The position numbers and the translations under genes are program-made. This document shows, one piece after another, positions 11,102 through 37,597 of a stretch of 54,645 nt of DNA. The DNA is taken from positions 1 through 54,645 of the forward strand of contig PMYN01000118.1 in NCBI GenBank assembly GCA_003171215.1, read 5' to 3'. The DNA is from Gemmatimonadota bacterium (lineage in GTDB: Bacteria; Gemmatimonadota; Gemmatimonadetes; Gemmatimonadales; Gemmatimonadaceae). Position 1 is the first letter of the stretch, and each line of letters opens with the position of its first letter. The notes beneath the pieces are model-generated. The model was not told where the DNA came from. It was given only the letters and a program-made list of their open reading frames with translations, and did not search any database.

Positions 11102-11122
11102 CGGCAGACTTGAGTGGCGAGG

Positions 11123-11381
11123 TTCGACCCGATGCGGAGTGCGGAAGAGGAATCCGAATTCGGGGTGGAGAGGGGAGTGGAGAGTTAGAGGGGAGTGGCG
11201 AGAAAGCGGGGAGTTATGAGAAGGGCGCGACCGCTCGAGGCCGCGCCCTCTTTGCATTAAGCGTTCGACTCCGTCATCAACTCGACTCTCATCTCACCTC
11301 TACTCGATGCTCACCTCTACTCCCTTCTCGTCTCTAATCCCCGAATTCGGATTCCTCTTCCGCACCCTGCATCGGGTCGAA
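11123..11381. repeat. Giant imperfect palindrome between convergent genes (repeat A, two inverted copies)
   Basis: The outer arms 11123-11165 and 11339-11381 are inverted copies of a 43-nt sequence with two mismatches; both contain the CGAATTCG palindrome. The inner arms are purine-rich on the left (repeated GGGAGTGG words) and pyrimidine-rich on the right. A terminator hairpin sits near the centre. The element fills most of the 316-nt gap between the metalloprotease gene and nfo. The downstream arm continues to 11399 as a full repeat A copy, matching 35709-35757 at 46 of 49 positions. Confidence 0.85.
11222..11253. terminator. Intrinsic terminator at the centre of the convergent gap
   Basis: AGGGCGCG (11222-11229) pairs with CGCGCCCT (11242-11249), with further pairing toward the loop, followed by CTTT. 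It lies roughly midway between convergent genes and probably serves both, most obviously the plus-strand metalloprotease gene. Confidence 0.65.
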
Positions 11382-11417
11382 ATTCCGCATCCCGCATCCA
11401 TCTCATCTCTCCCCACT

Positions 11418-20020: not shown

Positions 20021-21045
20021 GGAAGCAATAAGCTATTCAACGCGCGCGAGACCTGCTCGACTTCGAGCTCCCGCATGCACTTCCAGTGTCCAAGCGGGCA
20101 CACCTTGGGCCCGTGGGGATGGCACGGCCGGCACGTGAGCGACTCGTTGCCGATGGTCGCGTGGCGGGGCGCCAGCGGGCCGAATCCGAATTCCGGAGCG
20201 GTCGGACCGAAGATCGTGAGGGTGGGCGTGCCGGCAGCCGACGCGAGATGCTGCGGCGCCGAGTCGTTGGTCACCAGGGCCGCGCATCGCGAGAGCAGTT
20301 CCGTCGATGCGAGCAGCGAGAGCTTCCCGGTCGCGTTGATCACGCGCTCGGGTCCCGACGCCCGCGCGATCTCCGCGGCGAGCGCGTTGTCGTCGGCCCC
20401 GCCGACGACAACGAGCCGATAGAGCGGCGCCAGGCGTGCGGCGAGCGCCGGGAAATGCGGCCACCGTTTCGTGCCCCAGATGCTCCCGGGCGCGAGCGCG
20501 AGCAACTGTGCGCCGTCGCGCGGCACGTCCTTGAGGAGCGCATCGACCGCGGCGCGTTCCCTCTCGCCCGGATAAAGCCGCGGCCGGATGACCTCGGGCG
20601 CCGGATCGGGTGCCGCATCGCCCGCCGCCAGCCGCCACAGCCGCTCGGCGTGATGACGGTTGCCGCGATAGCGCGAGCGTCGCGTGTACAGCACGCGGCC
20701 CGCCGACGAGTCGAATCCGACGCGCTCTCGGATCCCCGCGAACAGCGCGAGCGAAGCGCTGCGCATCGATCCCTGCGCGAGGTACGCCGCGGCGATCTCT
20801 CGCGTCGTCCCGTCGGACCGCCTGCGCAGGCCGCGCGCGAAGCGCCACAGCCCGGCCATGCCGGCATCGGCGCCGCGCTTGTCGAACACGAGCAGGTCAC
20901 GCACCGCGGGATGATTCGCAAGCAGGGCCGCCGCCGCCGGCGTCACCACGACATCCACGGGCCCCCTCGACGCCAGCTCCGCGAGGAGCGGCGTGGTGAG
21001 GACGACATCACCGAGGAAACTGGTTTGGATGACGAGTGAGGACAT
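20017..21045 (-). CDS. waaF: Lipopolysaccharide heptosyltransferase, glycosyltransferase family 9
   Basis: The 342-residue protein is a GT-B enzyme of the WaaF/WaaC group that transfers heptose to the LPS core. Marks are the N-terminal LVIQTSFLGDVVLTTPLLAEL, the nucleotide-sugar region LLALAPGSIWGTKRWP, the acceptor loop LVTNDSAPQHLASAAGTPTLTIFGPT and a C-terminal Cys-containing TCRPCHPHGPKVCPLGHWKC typical of WaaF-like proteins. WaaF is the likeliest member; other GT9 specificities are possible. It is the first gene of the 11-gene directon. No clear Shine-Dalgarno sequence precedes the ATG, which sits next to the inverted repeat at 21051-21150. Confidence 0.88.
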   Translation of the reverse strand: MSSLVIQTSFLGDVVLTTPLLAELASRGPVDVVVTPAAAALLANHPAVRDLLVFDKRGADAGMAGLWRFARGLRRRSDGTTREIAAAYLAQGSMRSASLALFAGIRERVGFDSSAGRVLYTRRSRYRGNRHHAERLWRLAAGDAAPDPAPEVIRPRLYPGERERAAVDALLKDVPRDGAQLLALAPGSIWGTKRWPHFPALAARLAPLYRLVVVGGADDNALAAEIARASGPERVINATGKLSLLASTELLSRCAALVTNDSAPQHLASAAGTPTLTIFGPTAPEFGFGPLAPRHATIGNESLTCRPCHPHGPKVCPLGHWKCMRELEVEQVSRALNSLLLP

Positions 21046-21050
21046 GACTT

Positions 21051-21150
21051 AGCCGGAAGCCGGAAGCCCGAAGCCGGAAACCGGAAGCAGGTGGACCGAC
21101 GCCGGACAGCGCCTTGCTGTCTTCCGGCTTCCGGCCTCCGGCTTCCGGCT
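21051..21150. repeat. Inverted repeat of CCGGAAG units between lepA and waaF
   Basis: The left arm 21051-21066 pairs with either of two right-hand arms (21121-21136 and 21135-21150), each with one mismatch. A short stem GACAGC (21105-21110) / GCTGTC (21116-21121) lies between. The outermost right arm ends on the first base of the lepA stop codon (21150-21152). The unit CCGGAAG is repeated in tandem on both arms. It may terminate lepA transcription. Confidence 0.75.
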
Positions 21151-22946
21151 CACTCCACCTGCAGCACCGCCAAGAACGCTTCCTGTGGAATCTCGACCGA
21201 CCCAACCTGCTTCATCCGCTTCTTACCCTCTTTCTGCTTTTCCAGCAGCTTTCGCTTGCGGGTAATGTCTCCGCCGTAACACTTGGCAAGCACGTCCTTC
21301 CGCAGCGGCTTTACCGTGGTTCGCGCAATGACCTTCATTCCAATAGCCGCCTGGATCGCGACCTCGAACAGCTGCCGCGGAATCAGTTCCTTCAGCTTGT
21401 CGGCGATCTTGCGGCCCCACTCGTATGCCTTGTCCTCGTGGATGATCACGCTGAACGCGTCGATCGCGTCGCCGTTGATCAGCATGTCGAGACGCACGAG
21501 GCTGCTCCGCCGGTACGCCAGCATCTCGTAGTCCAGCGATGCGTATCCGCGCGAGATCGACTTCAGCTTGTCGAAGAAGTCGAGGATGATCTCCGCGAGC
21601 GGGAACTCCCAGTCGAACTCCACGCGAGCGGTGTCGATGTAGTGCATGCCCTTGTACTCGCCCCTCCGCTCGGTGCCGAGCGTCATGATCGCCCCGATGT
21701 ACTCGGTCGGCGCCATGATGCGCGCCTTCACGTACGGCTCCTCCACGTAGTCGATCACCGCGGCCGGAGGCATCAGGGCCGGATTCTCGACAAGCTTGAG
21801 CTCGCCGTCGGTCTTGTGCACGCGGTACTCCACGCTCGGGACCGTCGTGACCAGGTTGAGGTTGAACTCGCGCTCGAGCCGCTCCTGCACGATCTCCATG
21901 TGCAGCAGCCCGAGGAATCCGCAGCGGAACCCGAAGCCGAGCGCCGTCGAGGTCTCGGGTTCGTAGTGCAGCGAGGCGTCGTTGAGCTGCAGCTTCTCGA
22001 GCGCGTCGCGCAACTCCTCGTATTGCTGCGTGTCGGTCGGGTAGAGACCGGCAAACACGAACGACTTCACCGCCTGGTACCCCGGAAGCGCGGCGGCGGC
22101 GCGATTGTCGGCGTCGAACACCGTATCGCCCGCGCGCGTCTCCTTCACCGAGCGCACGCTCGCGACGACGTATCCCACCTCGCCGGCCGTCAGCACGTCG
22201 GTCGGCACCTGCCGGAGCTGGTTGTAGCCGACTTCCTGCACTTCGTAGATGGCGTCGTTCGCGCCGAACGTGATTCGCGTTCCCTTCTTGATGGTACCGT
22301 CCACGACCCGGATACTCGGCACCGCTCCGCGATACCGGTCGTAGTACGAGTCGTACACGAGCGCGCGCAGCGGCGCCTTCGGGTCGCCGCTCGGCGGCGG
22401 CGTCTTCTCGATGACCTTCTCGAGCAGCTCGACGATGCCGATCCCTTCCTTCGCGCTCACCAGCAGGATGTCGTCCGGATCGCATCCCAGCAGGCCGACG
22501 ACTTCCGCACGGCGCTTCTCCGGCTCGGCGCCGGGGAGATCGATCTTGTTCAGGATCGGGATGATCTCGAGCCCCGCTTCCATCGCGAGGAAGAGGTTCG
22601 AGAGCGTCTGCGCCTGGATCCCCTGCGACGCGTCGACGACGAGGATCGCTCCCTCGCACGCCGCGAGCGACCGCGAGACCTCGTACGTGAAGTCGACGTG
22701 CCCCGGCGTGTCGATCAGGTTCAGCTCGTAGGTCACGCCGTCCTTCGCCGTGTAGCTCATGCGCACGGCGTTCAGCTTGATCGTGATCCCGCGCTCGCGC
22801 TCGAGGTCGAGTGTGTCGAGCACCTGCTCCTTCATTTCCCGCTTCTGGAGCATGCCGGTGGCCTCGATCAGGCGGTCGGCGAGGGTCGACTTGCCGTGAT
22901 CGATATGCGCGACAATACAGAAATTGCGAATGCGGTCGAGCTGCAC
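21150..22946 (-). CDS. lepA: Elongation factor 4 (LepA), ribosome back-translocase GTPase
   Basis: The 598-residue protein (usual length about 600) begins with [25 protein letters not shown] (G1) and continues with RGITIK (G2), DTPGHVDF (G3) and LNKIDLP (G4). The C-terminus has the EF4-specific domain ([22 protein letters not shown]-like segment near the end). I chose the GTG at 22946, which has AAGGAC 6 nt upstream. An in-frame ATG at 22982 lies only 3 nt from a TATACT box and would be untranscribed if that box is the -10. Both starts give a working G-domain; the difference is 12 residues. The gene diverges from the DUF58 gene across a 467-nt repeat-rich gap. Confidence 0.95.
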
Positions 22947-22990: not shown

Positions 22991-23042
22991 GTCGCGCGCG
23001 AGCTTCTCCCCTAACGTTCTTGAACTGCGCGCCGTGCTCCCG

Positions 23043-23139
23043 GCGCGCGGGATGGCATTCGCCCAGGGCGGCCTTCCGCTTCGCGTCGCTGCCGCGACGC
23101 TCGCCCGGGCTCGCCCTGGACGAACACCATCCCGCGCGC
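23043..23139 (-). repeat. 97-bp three-stem hairpin element, copy 1
   Basis: Three nested stems are visible: a perfect 13-bp outer stem (23043-23055 with 23127-23139), an 8-bp middle stem (CCAGGGCG 23063-23070 with CGCCCTGG 23112-23119) and a 7-bp inner stem (GCGTCGC 23083-23089 with GCGACGC 23094-23100). Read on the minus strand, its central 39 nt match copy 2 at 35 positions. It occupies the first part of the lepA/DUF58 gap, in which no gene is seen. Confidence 0.85.
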
Positions 23140-23252
23140 CTCGCCGTTTGCGCCAAGTGAAGGTCGGATCGCGAGCGCGTGTCGGCGCGCTCCGATGCGG
23201 GTGTCCGCACCCATCCCGTCGAGCAGCGAGCGGGGATCTCTCCCCCAGGGAG

Positions 23253-23350
23253 GGCGCGCGCGGGCGTGTCCCAAAGGGTCCGCCCGGGCGAGCGGCGCGA
23301 CAGCGCCGCGATGCGGAAGGCGGAGCCCGTGGGACACGCCCGCCCGCGCC
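23253..23350 (+). repeat. 98-bp three-stem hairpin element, copy 2
   Basis: The outer stem pairs 23253-23273 with 23330-23350 (20 of 21 positions). A middle stem pairs the GGGTCCGCC region with GGCGGAGCCC with one bulge. The inner stem is CGGCGC (23293-23298) with GCGCCG (23303-23308) around GACA. It is the inverted partner of copy 1. The stretch between the copies (23140-23252) and on to the next gene holds nothing I can identify. Confidence 0.85.
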
Positions 23351-23413
23351 CGACGACCGCTGAGCGCAAACCGCAGTTGACGCGTAGATGCAGTTACATT
23401 CCGCATCGCAATA

Positions 23414-30975: not shown

Positions 30976-32361
30976 ATGACAGGCACCCGGGCGTTCGTTC
31001 AAACGGTTCTCTGCATCTGCGTCGCAGCTCCACTCGCGGCGCAGCAGCCCGGATCTGTCACCGCGCCCGTTGCGCCGAAGCCGGCGATGTCCGCGGGTCT
31101 CGCGCCGATCGGGATTCCGATCGACCGGATCGTCGCGATCGTCGGCCAGAGGCCGATCCTCTGGAGCGAGATCATGGACGCGATCTTCTACCTCAAGGGA
31201 GCCGGCGCGCAGATCCCGGAGGACAGCGCGGGCCTGATGGCGTACGCCCGCGATTCTGTCCTCAGTGACATGATCAACCAGGAAGTGTTGATCGCCGTCG
31301 CCAAGCAGTACAAGTCGGAGGTCGACGACAAGGATATCGCACCCGACGTCGACAAACGACTCAAGGAGCTGCACGGGCGATTCAAGTCGGACGCCGAGTT
31401 TCGCGTCCAGCTGAAAGCCGAGGGATTCGGCACCGAGACCGAACTGCGAACCTCGCTGCTCGATCGCCGACGTCGCGACATGCTGCAGGTGATGGGCAAG
31501 GACTCGCTGGCCGCGCACGGAAAGCTCTCGGCGCCGGTCAACGTCACCGAAGCCGACGTCACGGCCGCGTTCGAGAGGGCGAAGGGCAGGATCGGCAATC
31601 GCCCTGCGACGATCGCGTTCAAGCAGATCGTCATCGCGCCAAGGGCAAATGCCGTTGCGCGCGCCGCCGCGAAGGCCAAGGCCGAGTCGCTGCTCGTCGT
31701 GATCGAGAAGGGAGGCGACTTCGAGACGATCGCGAAGAAGGAGTCGATGGATCCGGGCTCGCGGGATCAGGGCGGCGCGATGCCGTTCACCAGGCGCGGA
31801 TTGATGGTGGACCCGTTCGACCGGGCGATCTTCTCGGGGGCGCCGCCCGGCACGGTCTTTCCCGTCGTGGTCGAGACGACGTTCGGGTTCCATATCATCC
31901 GCATCGATCGGGTGCAGCCGGCGCAGGTGAAGTCAAGCCACATCCTGATCATCCCGCACCTCGACTCGGCGGACCTCGCGCGCGCCCAGCTTGTTGCCGA
32001 CACCGTCATCACCAAGTGGCGCGCCGGTACGCCGTATGACTCGCTCGTGAAGTATTATCACGACCCCTCCGAGCTGAAGACGGTGCCGCTGAGTCCCAAC
32101 GACAGCACGATTCCGCTGGAGTATCGGAACGCCTTCGAGGGCGTGAAGAAGGGACAGCTCACGCGGCCATTCCAGATTCCGAATCCGCAGACGGGCTTTC
32201 CGAAGATCGTCATCGTGCTCATCACCGACCGTGCGGACGCCGGCGAATACACGGTGGCGGACGTTCGCGACAAGATCCGCCAGCAGCTCATCGAAGAAGG
32301 CCAGTTTCACCGCATGATCGACCAGTTGCGAAAGGAACAGTTCGTCAAGATCATGATGTGA
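30976..32361 (+). CDS. surA: SurA-like periplasmic chaperone/peptidyl-prolyl isomerase
   Basis: The 461-residue protein has a signal peptide (VLCICVAAPLAAQQ) and the SurA-type N-domain, beginning PIDRIVAIVGQRPILWSEIMDAI with MINQEVLIAVAKQY. A parvulin domain follows (IAFKQIVIAPRAN to VVVETTFGFHIIRIDRVQ, about residues 212-315), then a second degenerate parvulin-like repeat (VKSSHILIIPHLDSADL onward). SurA assists outer-membrane protein folding. A very strong ribosome-binding site (GGGAGG) precedes the ATG. pdxA follows with a one-base overlap, the same surA-pdxA order known from E. coli, which supports the assignment. Confidence 0.9.
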   Translation: MTGTRAFVQTVLCICVAAPLAAQQPGSVTAPVAPKPAMSAGLAPIGIPIDRIVAIVGQRPILWSEIMDAIFYLKGAGAQIPEDSAGLMAYARDSVLSDMINQEVLIAVAKQYKSEVDDKDIAPDVDKRLKELHGRFKSDAEFRVQLKAEGFGTETELRTSLLDRRRRDMLQVMGKDSLAAHGKLSAPVNVTEADVTAAFERAKGRIGNRPATIAFKQIVIAPRANAVARAAAKAKAESLLVVIEKGGDFETIAKKESMDPGSRDQGGAMPFTRRGLMVDPFDRAIFSGAPPGTVFPVVVETTFGFHIIRIDRVQPAQVKSSHILIIPHLDSADLARAQLVADTVITKWRAGTPYDSLVKYYHDPSELKTVPLSPNDSTIPLEYRNAFEGVKKGQLTRPFQIPNPQTGFPKIVIVLITDRADAGEYTVADVRDKIRQQLIEEGQFHRMIDQLRKEQFVKIMM

Positions 32362-33257
32362 TGCATTCGCGCGCACGTCTCGCCATCACGCTGGGCGACC
32401 CCCGCGGTATCGGCGGGGAGATAGTTCGCAAGGCGCTGGGCGATTCGCGCGTCGCCGCAGCGTGCGAGGCCGTGATCGTGGGTCCCTCCGGTCTCGAGGT
32501 GCGTCCCGATATTTCGGTGGGCTCCTGGCGCTCGAGCGGCGAAGTCGCCGATGCGGGCCGCCTCGCCGGCGTCGCCATCGAGCGTGCCGTGGCGATGGCG
32601 ATGGCCGGTGAGGTTGACGGCATCGTCACCGCACCCATCGACAAGGCCGCGCTGTTCGCGGGCGGATACGACTTTCCCGGGCATACCGAGATGCTCGCGA
32701 AGCTCACGGGTTCGCGCACCGCGATGATGCTCGCGTCGGATCGCCTGCGCGTAGTGCTGGCCACGACGCACATCGCCCTGCGTGACGTTCCCGCCGCGGT
32801 GACTCCCGATGCCCTCGCCCGGGCCGCCCGGCTCACGCGTGAGGGACTGCGACGCTGGTACGGAATTGCCGAGCCCCGGCTGGCGCTCTGCGCGCTGAAT
32901 CCGCACGCGGGCGACCACGGCCGCTTCGGCGACGAGGATGACACGATTCTGCGTCCGGTGGCGAGGGACGAAGGCATGTCCGGCCCGTTCCCCGCAGACA
33001 CCGTCTTCGTCCGCGCCATGCGCGGCGAGTTCGACGCCGTGATCGCCCCGTATCACGACGTCGGGATGACCGCCATCAAGGTCGCGAGCTTCGGACATGC
33101 GGTGAACGTGACGCTGGGGCTGCCGTTCCCGCGCACGTCACCGGATCATGGGACGGCGATCGATATCGCCGGTCAGGATCGCGCGGATGCGGGGTCGATG
33201 ATCGAGGCGATCCTTCAGTGTGCGAAATTCGCTCAGAGGAAGAGCGAGGGGTTCTAA
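32361..33257 (+). CDS. pdxA: 4-hydroxythreonine-4-phosphate dehydrogenase
   Basis: The 298-residue protein catalyses the NAD-dependent oxidation step of the DXP-dependent pyridoxal phosphate pathway. Motifs are ITLGDPRGIGGEIVRKAL, the metal and substrate histidines in VTAPIDKAAL/FPGHTEMLA, ALNPHAGDHGRFGDED, PYHDVGMTAIKV and TSPDHGTAIDIAG. It is slightly shorter than the typical 330 residues. The ATG at 32361 overlaps the surA stop (TGATG); a GTG at 32358 is possible. The last codons (SEGF) and stop lie inside a perfect 24-nt inverted repeat shared with the end of the convergent gene. Confidence 0.93.
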   Translation: MHSRARLAITLGDPRGIGGEIVRKALGDSRVAAACEAVIVGPSGLEVRPDISVGSWRSSGEVADAGRLAGVAIERAVAMAMAGEVDGIVTAPIDKAALFAGGYDFPGHTEMLAKLTGSRTAMMLASDRLRVVLATTHIALRDVPAAVTPDALARAARLTREGLRRWYGIAEPRLALCALNPHAGDHGRFGDEDDTILRPVARDEGMSGPFPADTVFVRAMRGEFDAVIAPYHDVGMTAIKVASFGHAVNVTLGLPFPRTSPDHGTAIDIAGQDRADAGSMIEAILQCAKFAQRKSEGF

Positions 33258-33419
33258 AACGGCGACGGGCGACGGGAACCAACGGCGACGGGTGACGAGT
33301 GAGCGGCGTCTTAGCGAAGGGCGAGGAGTGAGGGGTGCGAAGCAGACCATCCCCCTCACGCCTCGCCCTTCACCAAATTGCCGCTCACCCGTCACCCGTC
33401 GCCGTTTTAGAACCCCTCA
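33243..33419. repeat. Giant inverted repeat covering the 3' ends of pdxA and the CNNM gene
   Basis: A perfect 24-nt inverted repeat (33246-33269 with 33395-33418) spans the pdxA stop codon on one side and most of the CNNM-family stop on the other. Inside it, 33281-33307 pairs with 33380-33406 at 26 of 27 positions. A central hairpin built of GGGCGAGG..GTGAGGGG and its complement (about 33318-33370) completes a near-continuous stem. Both proteins end in Ser-Glu-Gly(-Phe) because of the shared sequence. Confidence 0.9.
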
Positions 33420-34727
33420 CCCCTCGCTCACCGCCGTCGCCTTTTCGAGCGCCAGCGTCTCGATCCGCCTCCCATCCATCGCCCTCACGATGAATGTGGC
33501 CCCGCCCCCGGTCACCCGATCTCCAACGAGAGGAAGCCGCCCCAGCACCCCGAACACGTACCCGCCAAGCGTCGTGTAATCCTCCTCCGGAACCGACAAC
33601 CCGAAGCTCTCGTTCACCTCCCGAACATTGGACGCCCCCGCCACGAGCGTCACTCCCCCCGAAGCAGAGGGCGTCCGCACCTCGACCGTCTCGTCGTATT
33701 CGTCCAGGATCTCCCCCACGATCTCCTCGAGCAGATCCTCCATCGTGACGAGGCCGGCCGTACCCCCGTACTCGTCGAGCACGATCGCCATGTGCTCCTT
33801 CCGCTTCTTGAAGTCCGCGAGCACCTCCTCCACCTCGCGTGAGCCCGGCACCACGTGCACCTCCCGCATCACGTCCCGCACCGTGAACTCGTCGATCTTC
33901 TCGCGCAGTACCCCGAGAAGGTCCTTCACGTGGAGCATTCCGATGATATTGTCGATCGACTCGTCGAACACCGGATAGCGCGAGAACCCCGCCTCCTCCA
34001 CCACCTCGAGCGCATCGTCGAGCGATGCATCCGCCGTCATCGCCACGATGTCCGTCCGCGGGGTCATGACGTCGCGCGCCTTCTTCTCCGAGAATTCGAA
34101 CACCTTTCCGAGCATCGTGGCGTCCGTCGTCTCGAGCGCGCCTTGTTCCTCACTCTGCTCCACGAGCATGCGCAGTTCGTCGGGCGAGTGCACCGGTTCG
34201 CGCTGGATTTTCGAGCTCTGCCCGAAGAGCCTGAGTGCCCCGCCTGCCGATACGTTGAGCACCCAGATGAATGGCGACGCGATCCACGCGAACGCGAGCA
34301 GCGGCGGCGCGAGCCACTTGGCGATCTGCTCCGGGTGGTTCAGCGCCACGGCCCTCGGCGCCAGCTCCCCGAACACCACCTGCAGGTAGGTCGCCAGCAG
34401 CAGCGCGACTATGGCGCCGATGCTGACGCGGAGCGATTCTTCAATCGGGAAGGGGAGCGACGCGAAGAGAACCCCGAACGAGTGGCCGAGGGCGCTTTCG
34501 GCGGTCCAGCCGAGCCCGAGCGAGGCGAGGGTGATGCCAAGCTGGCTCGCGGAGAGCACGCGGGCGAGATTTCCCGAAGCGGAGAAGGCGAAGCGGGCGA
34601 GGGGGTCGCCGGCGCGCACCATCGCCTGCAGCCGGGTGCGCCGCGAGCGCACGAGGGCGAACTCCACCGCGACGAAATAGCCGTTGAGGACCAGCAATAC
34701 GACGATGACCGCGATGCGTTCCAGCAC
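33417..34727 (-). CDS. CNNM/CorC-HlyC family membrane protein with CBS pair
   Basis: The 436-residue protein has a DUF21 (CNNM) transmembrane domain: VIVVLLVLNGYFVAVEFALVRSRRTRLQ, the conserved SASQLGITLASLGLGWTAE and VFGELAPRAVALNHPEQIA. A CBS pair follows (DVMTPRTDIVAMTADASLDDAL onward, about residues 215-335), then a C-terminal CorC/HlyC domain (LGGYVFGVLGRLPLVGDRV). Relatives export magnesium or other divalent cations, or modulate such transport. The GTG start lies 44 nt from the start of the divergent CDF zinc exporter, so the two may share a control region. The C-terminus lies within the inverted repeat at 33243-33419. Confidence 0.9.
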   Translation of the reverse strand: MLERIAVIVVLLVLNGYFVAVEFALVRSRRTRLQAMVRAGDPLARFAFSASGNLARVLSASQLGITLASLGLGWTAESALGHSFGVLFASLPFPIEESLRVSIGAIVALLLATYLQVVFGELAPRAVALNHPEQIAKWLAPPLLAFAWIASPFIWVLNVSAGGALRLFGQSSKIQREPVHSPDELRMLVEQSEEQGALETTDATMLGKVFEFSEKKARDVMTPRTDIVAMTADASLDDALEVVEEAGFSRYPVFDESIDNIIGMLHVKDLLGVLREKIDEFTVRDVMREVHVVPGSREVEEVLADFKKRKEHMAIVLDEYGGTAGLVTMEDLLEEIVGEILDEYDETVEVRTPSASGGVTLVAGASNVREVNESFGLSVPEEDYTTLGGYVFGVLGRLPLVGDRVTGGGATFIVRAMDGRRIETLALEKATAVSEG

Positions 34728-35694: not shown

Positions 35695-35708
35695 GTACCG
35701 TCACCCGC

Positions 35709-35776
35709 ATTCCTCTTCCGCACTCTGCATCGGGTCGAAATTCCGCACTCCGCATCCCACCCCGCATCCCGCATCG
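35709..35776. repeat. Dispersed intergenic repeat A, copy upstream of the PilT-like gene
   Basis: The first 49 nt match 11351-11399 at 46 positions. The last 24 nt match the window start (1-25) apart from one inserted base and one substitution. The copy fills most of the 86-nt gap between the CDF gene and the PilT-like gene, so any promoter for the latter would lie within or very near it. Confidence 0.85.
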
Positions 35777-37385: not shown

Positions 37386-37403
37386 GGCAGCGGGGAGATT
37401 CCT

Positions 37404-37552
37404 AAACGAGCGAACTGTTAACCACTCACTGTTGGTTGGTTAACCGAGGTTCTTCGTAACGACCACAACACGGACCTTCGAGTGTCGTGGCCGTCACCAA
37501 TTCGCTCACCATTAGCAAACCAACGGTTAGTGGTTAACGGTTCCACTCGTTT
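37404..37552. repeat. Nested inverted repeat between the PilT-like gene and typA
   Basis: The outer arms 37404-37439 and 37516-37552 are imperfect inverted copies sharing AAACGAG, GTTAACCACT and GTTGGTT blocks. Between them a second stem pairs 37459-37471 with 37482-37494 (11 of 13 positions). It begins 19 nt after the PilT-like stop and may act as its terminator. It accounts for much of the 255-nt gap; the remainder carries the typA promoter region. Confidence 0.8.
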
Positions 37553-37597
37553 TGGGGCCGGCCGTTGCGCCCAAGATCGCGGGATTTCGGTGTTGGA

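Follow-up and report, generated by a model that had tools for sequence, protein, structure and literature searches.

REPs of the GTAG and CGTC superfamilies are presented, in the sections available to us of a published account (PMC3733652), as sequences of 20-40 bp with stems of 5-13 bp and an unpaired tag, located mainly downstream of genes and often beside the 3' ends of convergent genes; for the CGTC REPs, the same sections give no known transposase. A second described system, in a source likewise available in part (PMC2700814), comprises elements with inverted heptanucleotide repeats in Geobacter metallireducens, described there as putative binding sites for a global regulator. Here we analyze a palindrome between the convergent genes pdxA and CNNM in a member of the Gemmatimonadaceae (contig PMYN01000118.1 of assembly GCA_003171215.1, whose positions 1 to 54,645, i.e., 54,645 nt, are referred to as the window). 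This palindrome very probably belongs, as one copy, to a dispersed, non-coding family of palindromic repeats, designated family B, which within the genomes searched is restricted to a handful of species in a single Gemmatimonadaceae genus. As a dispersed palindromic repeat it is of an ordinary kind, while its heptamer form is unusual and its evolution interesting.

The assignment of the plus-strand gene to pdxA was confirmed by PF04166 (Pfam), with the gene ending at 33257 in a TAA codon (33255-33257), and the minus-strand protein carries CNNM, CBS and CorC_HlyC domains (Pfam). Between the two genes, all 24 positions pair between 33246-33269 and 33395-33418, and 26 of 27 pair between 33281-33307 and 33380-33406, so that both the perfect inverted repeat and the internal arms described in an earlier note on this sequence were recovered. 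An ungapped comparison of the outer arms (33239-33276 / 33388-33425) gave 34 pairs over 38 positions, and an independent repeat search returned inner arms of 55 nt at 87% and outer arms of 38 nt at 89%, the longest arms in the window at a distance within 150. The corresponding single strand folds at -129.4 kcal/mol, compared to a mean of -72.9 for shuffled sequences (z -12.5; 0/200 shuffles equal). Two other statements of the earlier note held only in part. The 24-nt arm, said to span the ends of both genes, does include the last codons and stop of pdxA but at its other end takes in just two of the three bases of the stop codon of CNNM, and the Ser-Glu-Gly end ascribed to both proteins is present in each but is followed in PdxA by a further Phe (SEGF). 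To line up AGC-GAG-GGG in pdxA with AGC-GAG-GGG in CNNM, one additional heptamer has to be allowed for on the CNNM side. Since the number of outer modules varies among copies, the outer limits of the element (Table 1) are a judgement. Two open frames, 33138-33395 (-) and 33220-33579 (+), of 85 and 119 aa, cross the element, and probably represent spurious frames that lead to false gene annotation.

Table 1 Coordinates of the pdxA-CNNM palindrome, its parts, and the adjoining genes in the window.
Feature	Position	Strand	Remarks
pdxA	32358..33257	+	Last codons AGC-GAG-GGG-TTC-TAA (33243-33257) within the outer left arm
CNNM/CBS/CorC_HlyC membrane protein gene	33417..34727	-	Stop TGA 33417-33419, last codons AGC-GAG-GGG 33420-33428
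Whole element	33243..33428	no strand	Starts with the pdxA SEG codons and finishes with those of CNNM; outer limits are a judgement
24-nt outer left arm	33246..33269	+	Contains TTCTAA (locus-specific linker) and the stop codon of pdxA; the G010 ortholog has this arm too
24-nt outer right arm	33395..33418	-	Perfect partner of 33246-33269; TTAGAA linker (33407-33412) missing from the G010 ortholog
Inner left arm, repeated core	33281..33335	+	Heptamers GCGAnnn/GTGAnnn; repeat search and model matches
Inner right arm, repeated core	33352..33406	-	Repeat search and model matches
Extra heptamer, CNNM side	33413..33419	-	Reads TGAGGGG on the minus strand and includes the stop codon of CNNM

When used as a query, the 261-base region including this palindrome gave 69 matches across both strands of its own genome (G000). 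A search of 41 genomes, with at most 18 candidates scored in each, detected at least 42 matches in G010, 7 or more in G014, no fewer than 6 in G002, and at least 1 in G003, all members of the same genus, and no family B match in 36 of the 41. The places identified with a profile numbered 41 in G000 (~752 kb sampled), 25 in G010 (273 kb), 19 in G014 (483 kb), and 4 in G002 (33 kb); the sampled DNA was partly picked for family B matches, so that these counts are not genome-wide rates. The profile was built on 33 full copies, i.e., the 39 full copies minus two (one with an N, one with a rearranged core) and minus four of G014, and the mean column identity of their alignment was 76%. Copies are quasi-palindromic, measure ~125-180 bp, and are made of 7-nt units, GCGAnnn or GTGAnnn, oriented inward on both arms. 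Each copy has a quasi-palindromic core of ~125 bp, flanked by outer modules of 20-30 nt that vary in number.

Chance or simple low complexity was rejected as an origin of these matches, because the core shared among copies far exceeds what heptamer composition provides. The heptamer period itself was clear in the convergent gaps of G000 (lag-7 matching z 5.1) and in the convergent and tandem gaps of G010 (z 5.1 and 8.4), and weak in G014 (z 1.8 convergent, 0.2 tandem, and -1.1 divergent). At the pdxA-CNNM gap, lag 7 exceeded the other lags from 5 to 9 in 16/16 genomes compared. No 7-nt period of gene ends was found in the samples of G015, G006, and G029 (the latter from another family), and a genus-wide periodicity of gene ends was rejected on the G015 and G006 samples. 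A scan of GTDB contigs for the exact core pattern, in a collection which may omit the window's own genome, returned 44 stretches, 41 of them from two Gemmatimonadaceae/Gemmatimonadetes assemblies (prefixes JADGQS and CAIVZZ). The three stretches from other bacteria, two with model matches of 30-38 positions (E 0.003-0.009) and one with none, look like chance. Searches of phage records, and of IMG/VR by pattern, gave no match pointing to a phage origin, and the 27 Rfam matches (E up to 1), nearly all of microRNA type and far under gathering scores, were discarded as hairpin artefacts. Literature searches on Gemmatimonadota intergenic repeats and on REPs linked with concerted evolution and gene conversion returned nothing, and the portions available of the literature on Gemmatimonadetes palindromic repeats, and of that on heptamer repeats and stop-codon overlap, include no description of the family B element.

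Additional palindromes were observed in the window and in related genomes. A third dispersed family, with GATGCGGAGTGCGGAA words, is found at 11115-11390 and 35706-35747, and occupies ~12 places in the sampled G000 and 5 in G010. An inverted GCCGGAA heptamer array lies at 21040-21160, with similar places in G000, G010, G014, and G002, and long nested inverted repeats at 23040-23355 are 92% conserved in one G010 contig and not widely dispersed in the sample. A further family in G014 (L116 15651-15802 and L118 19634-19771) has a length of ~140-150 bp and GACGTCAGACG arms.

Family B copies were unevenly distributed relative to genes. In the pooled G000, G010, and G014 sequences, with gaps classed by a simple codon-based gene caller, a copy was present in 36/153 convergent, 12/157 divergent, and 25/913 tandem gaps (Fisher: convergent vs. 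divergent 1.3e-4, convergent vs. tandem 4e-17), and as the sample is copy-enriched, only the comparison among these three classes is meaningful. Copies favor sites between convergent genes, near or overlapping stop codons. Stop codons occur at 4.46 per 100 nt when arms are read inward, compared to 0.41 outward and 2.57 in shuffled arms, hence genes entering arms end in element-coded tails. Five gene ends carry TSD tails (TSDG, TSDA twice, TSDK, and TSDE), SEG occurs at a G000 gene (contig C83), and ATGDS twice in G014. For a gene entering an arm, the sequences show that an in-frame TGA or TAA of the element ends translation, with the protein gaining a tail such as SEG, TSDx, or ATGDS. PdxA and the CNNM protein share their ending because each gene runs into the same arm of the element, as also happens at other loci. 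The element is nevertheless not designed as an all-frame stop, since only 5/92 arms close every reading frame within 60 nt, and an all-frame stop cassette is accordingly unsupported. More generally, unrelated proteins can acquire identical C-terminal residues from a repeat located where their genes end, which can mislead annotation as well as claims of gene-end copying.

One such claim, made by the earlier note, was that a template-switch or quasi-palindrome event had copied one gene end onto the other. We considered it as in-situ template switching (quasi-palindrome correction) that would have made the palindrome by copying the pdxA end onto the CNNM end, via a mechanism that has been published (PMC8794818, available in part). 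The two arms of a copy are only slightly more alike than expected from the family as a whole. Across 57 pairs in 33 copies, paired cells reached 89.0% vs. 87.9% in shuffled data (0/500 shuffles as high) and the covariation score 0.121 vs. 0.105 (1/500 shuffles reaching 0.121), but pairs changed on both sides showed no clear excess (15 vs. 13.5 shuffled; 139/500 as high). Similarly, the Watson-Crick match of own arms was 0.836, compared to 0.824 when arms were shuffled within a genome (p 0.022), a strong match being confined to the outer module of the pdxA-CNNM locus, and the outer flanks of arms matched at 11.4 vs. 10.4 shuffled (p 0.018; 39 copies). Regular copying of arms within a locus should make own arms match far better than arms from other copies; as they match only slightly better, the core palindrome probably arrived as part of the element, and gene-end copying at this locus is unlikely to have created it. 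The palindrome is mostly family-inherited, and a small within-copy matching excess exists.

Comparison of the same gap in relatives, a check proposed by the earlier note, revealed different palindromes with internally matched arms, as that note had anticipated, and narrowed the part that copying may have played. The G010 locus has flanks 93% identical to the window and keeps the pdxA end with its TTCTAA, but its stop-to-stop gap is 54 bases instead of 159, its core is missing, its CNNM side is different, and the TTCTAA module is present on the pdxA side only. From this one ortholog, the CNNM side probably received its copy of the module from the pdxA side once the lineages of the window and G010 had separated, although its loss in G010 is a possible alternative account of the one-sided presence; the G010 gap fits TTCTAA copying in the lineage of the window combined with core loss in G010. 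In G014, the gap contains a different, matched palindrome and both proteins end in ATGDS, a pattern that template switching could likewise produce, as it could the perfectly matched arm of a G010 copy (contig C27) where the G000 arm is not. However, the G014 gap palindrome shares 90% identity with a second G014 copy and hence itself belongs to the family, and the core of the window palindrome is a multi-copy element found at dozens of other places. Copying of one gene end onto the other is therefore valid at most for the outermost TTCTAA module, and as the origin of the palindrome we consider it improbable. The G002 gap holds a single arm resembling another heptamer-like palindrome family, with GTTAAC words, which is also present in the window at 37400-37560 and has further copies in G014, where arms of ~35-42 nt surround a variable terminator-like hairpin.

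An alternative explanation for a palindrome at this position would be a bidirectional transcription terminator, its hairpin kept by selection on base pairing. The preference for convergent gaps is in line with such a function, as is the hairpin detected at the pdxA-CNNM gap in 10/14 genus members (z <= -2.5 on at least one strand). Moreover, with the copy masked, another strong short-loop stem was found in 1/35 convergent gaps with a copy, compared to 18/106 copy-free gaps. By the same measure, however, the unmasked copy yields a strong short-loop stem in only 1/35 gaps, and we found no terminator-like site in or near the element, including no intrinsic terminator (a G+C-rich stem followed by a T run) in 33239-33428. 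In addition, G-T and A-C mismatches are about equally frequent (97 vs. 83 cells), with no sign of favored RNA wobble pairs; no significant hairpin was found at the gap in 4/14 genus members (G002, G003, G005, and G015); and tandem and divergent gaps hold copies too. The contention of the earlier note that the arm match does not merely reflect a selection-shaped terminator is supported, and a terminator maintained by selection seems unlikely, though clearly less so than an origin by template switching. For a family B copy, we would instead envision a passive or modest role, as a tolerated 3'-end repeat which may separate two converging transcripts, with a bidirectional transcript barrier as a possible, predicted role.

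Shared sites across genomes suggest how these copies may evolve. For eight full-copy pairs at sites shared by G000 and G010, the mean identity was 0.85: the ortholog was the best match of the G000 copy in four of the eight (C147:20793, C30, C73, and C52; 0.85-0.97), ranked first yet at 0.77 only at C135, and was not first-ranked at C110, C147:35794, and C123. Five G000-G014 pairs had a mean identity of 0.70, compared to 0.795 among G000 paralogs, and G014 copies matched their own paralogs at a mean of only 0.67 because two dialects are present in G014. Positions recur as well, with 10/19 G014 places having one or both flanks matching a G000 or G010 place (8/17 without the pdxA and C31 places, which were picked by position). 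Tandem units were gained and lost in seven G000/G010 ortholog regions, and three G010 loci, the pdxA gap among them, hold core-deleted copies. Absent sites, read by eye, include the counterpart in G000 of the G010:C184 copy, whose neighbor gene in G010 ends in TSDE, and that in G014 of the G000:C73 copy, and these copies missing in a relative indicate that gain or loss continues. Ortholog comparison shows that copies change through unit gain or loss, core deletion, and replacement by sequence resembling other copies in the genome, by a molecular route that we infer. The combination of fixed position and species-specific sequence suggests either concerted evolution or repeated insertion into favored sites. 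Tentatively, and with some reservation, we propose that these 3'-end palindromes stay at the same gene ends as species diverge, whereas throughout each genome their sequence is rewritten in step into a species-specific heptamer dialect on both arms, overwriting the C-termini of unrelated neighboring proteins. If true, a short bacterial repeat with dispersed copies and no known transposase would be undergoing concerted evolution. Fixed sites with species-specific sequence provide a testable case for distinguishing concerted evolution from repeated preferred-site insertion in short bacterial palindromes.

Family B resembles REPs, as far as the available sections of PMC3733652 describe them, in being dispersed, mostly extragenic, and palindromic, and in its preference for gene 3' ends, which would be compatible with a REP/REPIN-type element moved by a RAYT (Y1 tyrosine) transposase. 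However, a family B copy spans ~125-180 bp with a core of ~125 bp built of 7-nt units, compared to 20-40 bp for REPs, and the unpaired GTAG/CGTC tag was not seen: the CGTC at the core end pairs with the GACG of the other arm, and the alignment includes no GTAG tag. In contrast to the REPIN/RAYT system, a Y1 transposase match was obtained in 0/12 genus genomes scored (drafts, window genome included), compared to 2/6 more distant genomes and 5/14 controls. A RAYT mobilizer was thus rejected for now, and mobilization of this kind is extremely improbable. Template-switch hairpins, as presented in the accessible part of PMC8794818, could account for the locus-specific outer arm here, but operate within one locus and leave the dozens of similar copies unexplained. 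Finally, the Geobacter metallireducens elements, in the part of PMC2700814 available, differ from family B in their unit (MTYCTGA), in belonging to another phylum, and in being proposed regulator sites with no 3'-end preference noted there, but are likewise multi-copy tandem heptanucleotides, which are drawn looping and switching strands.
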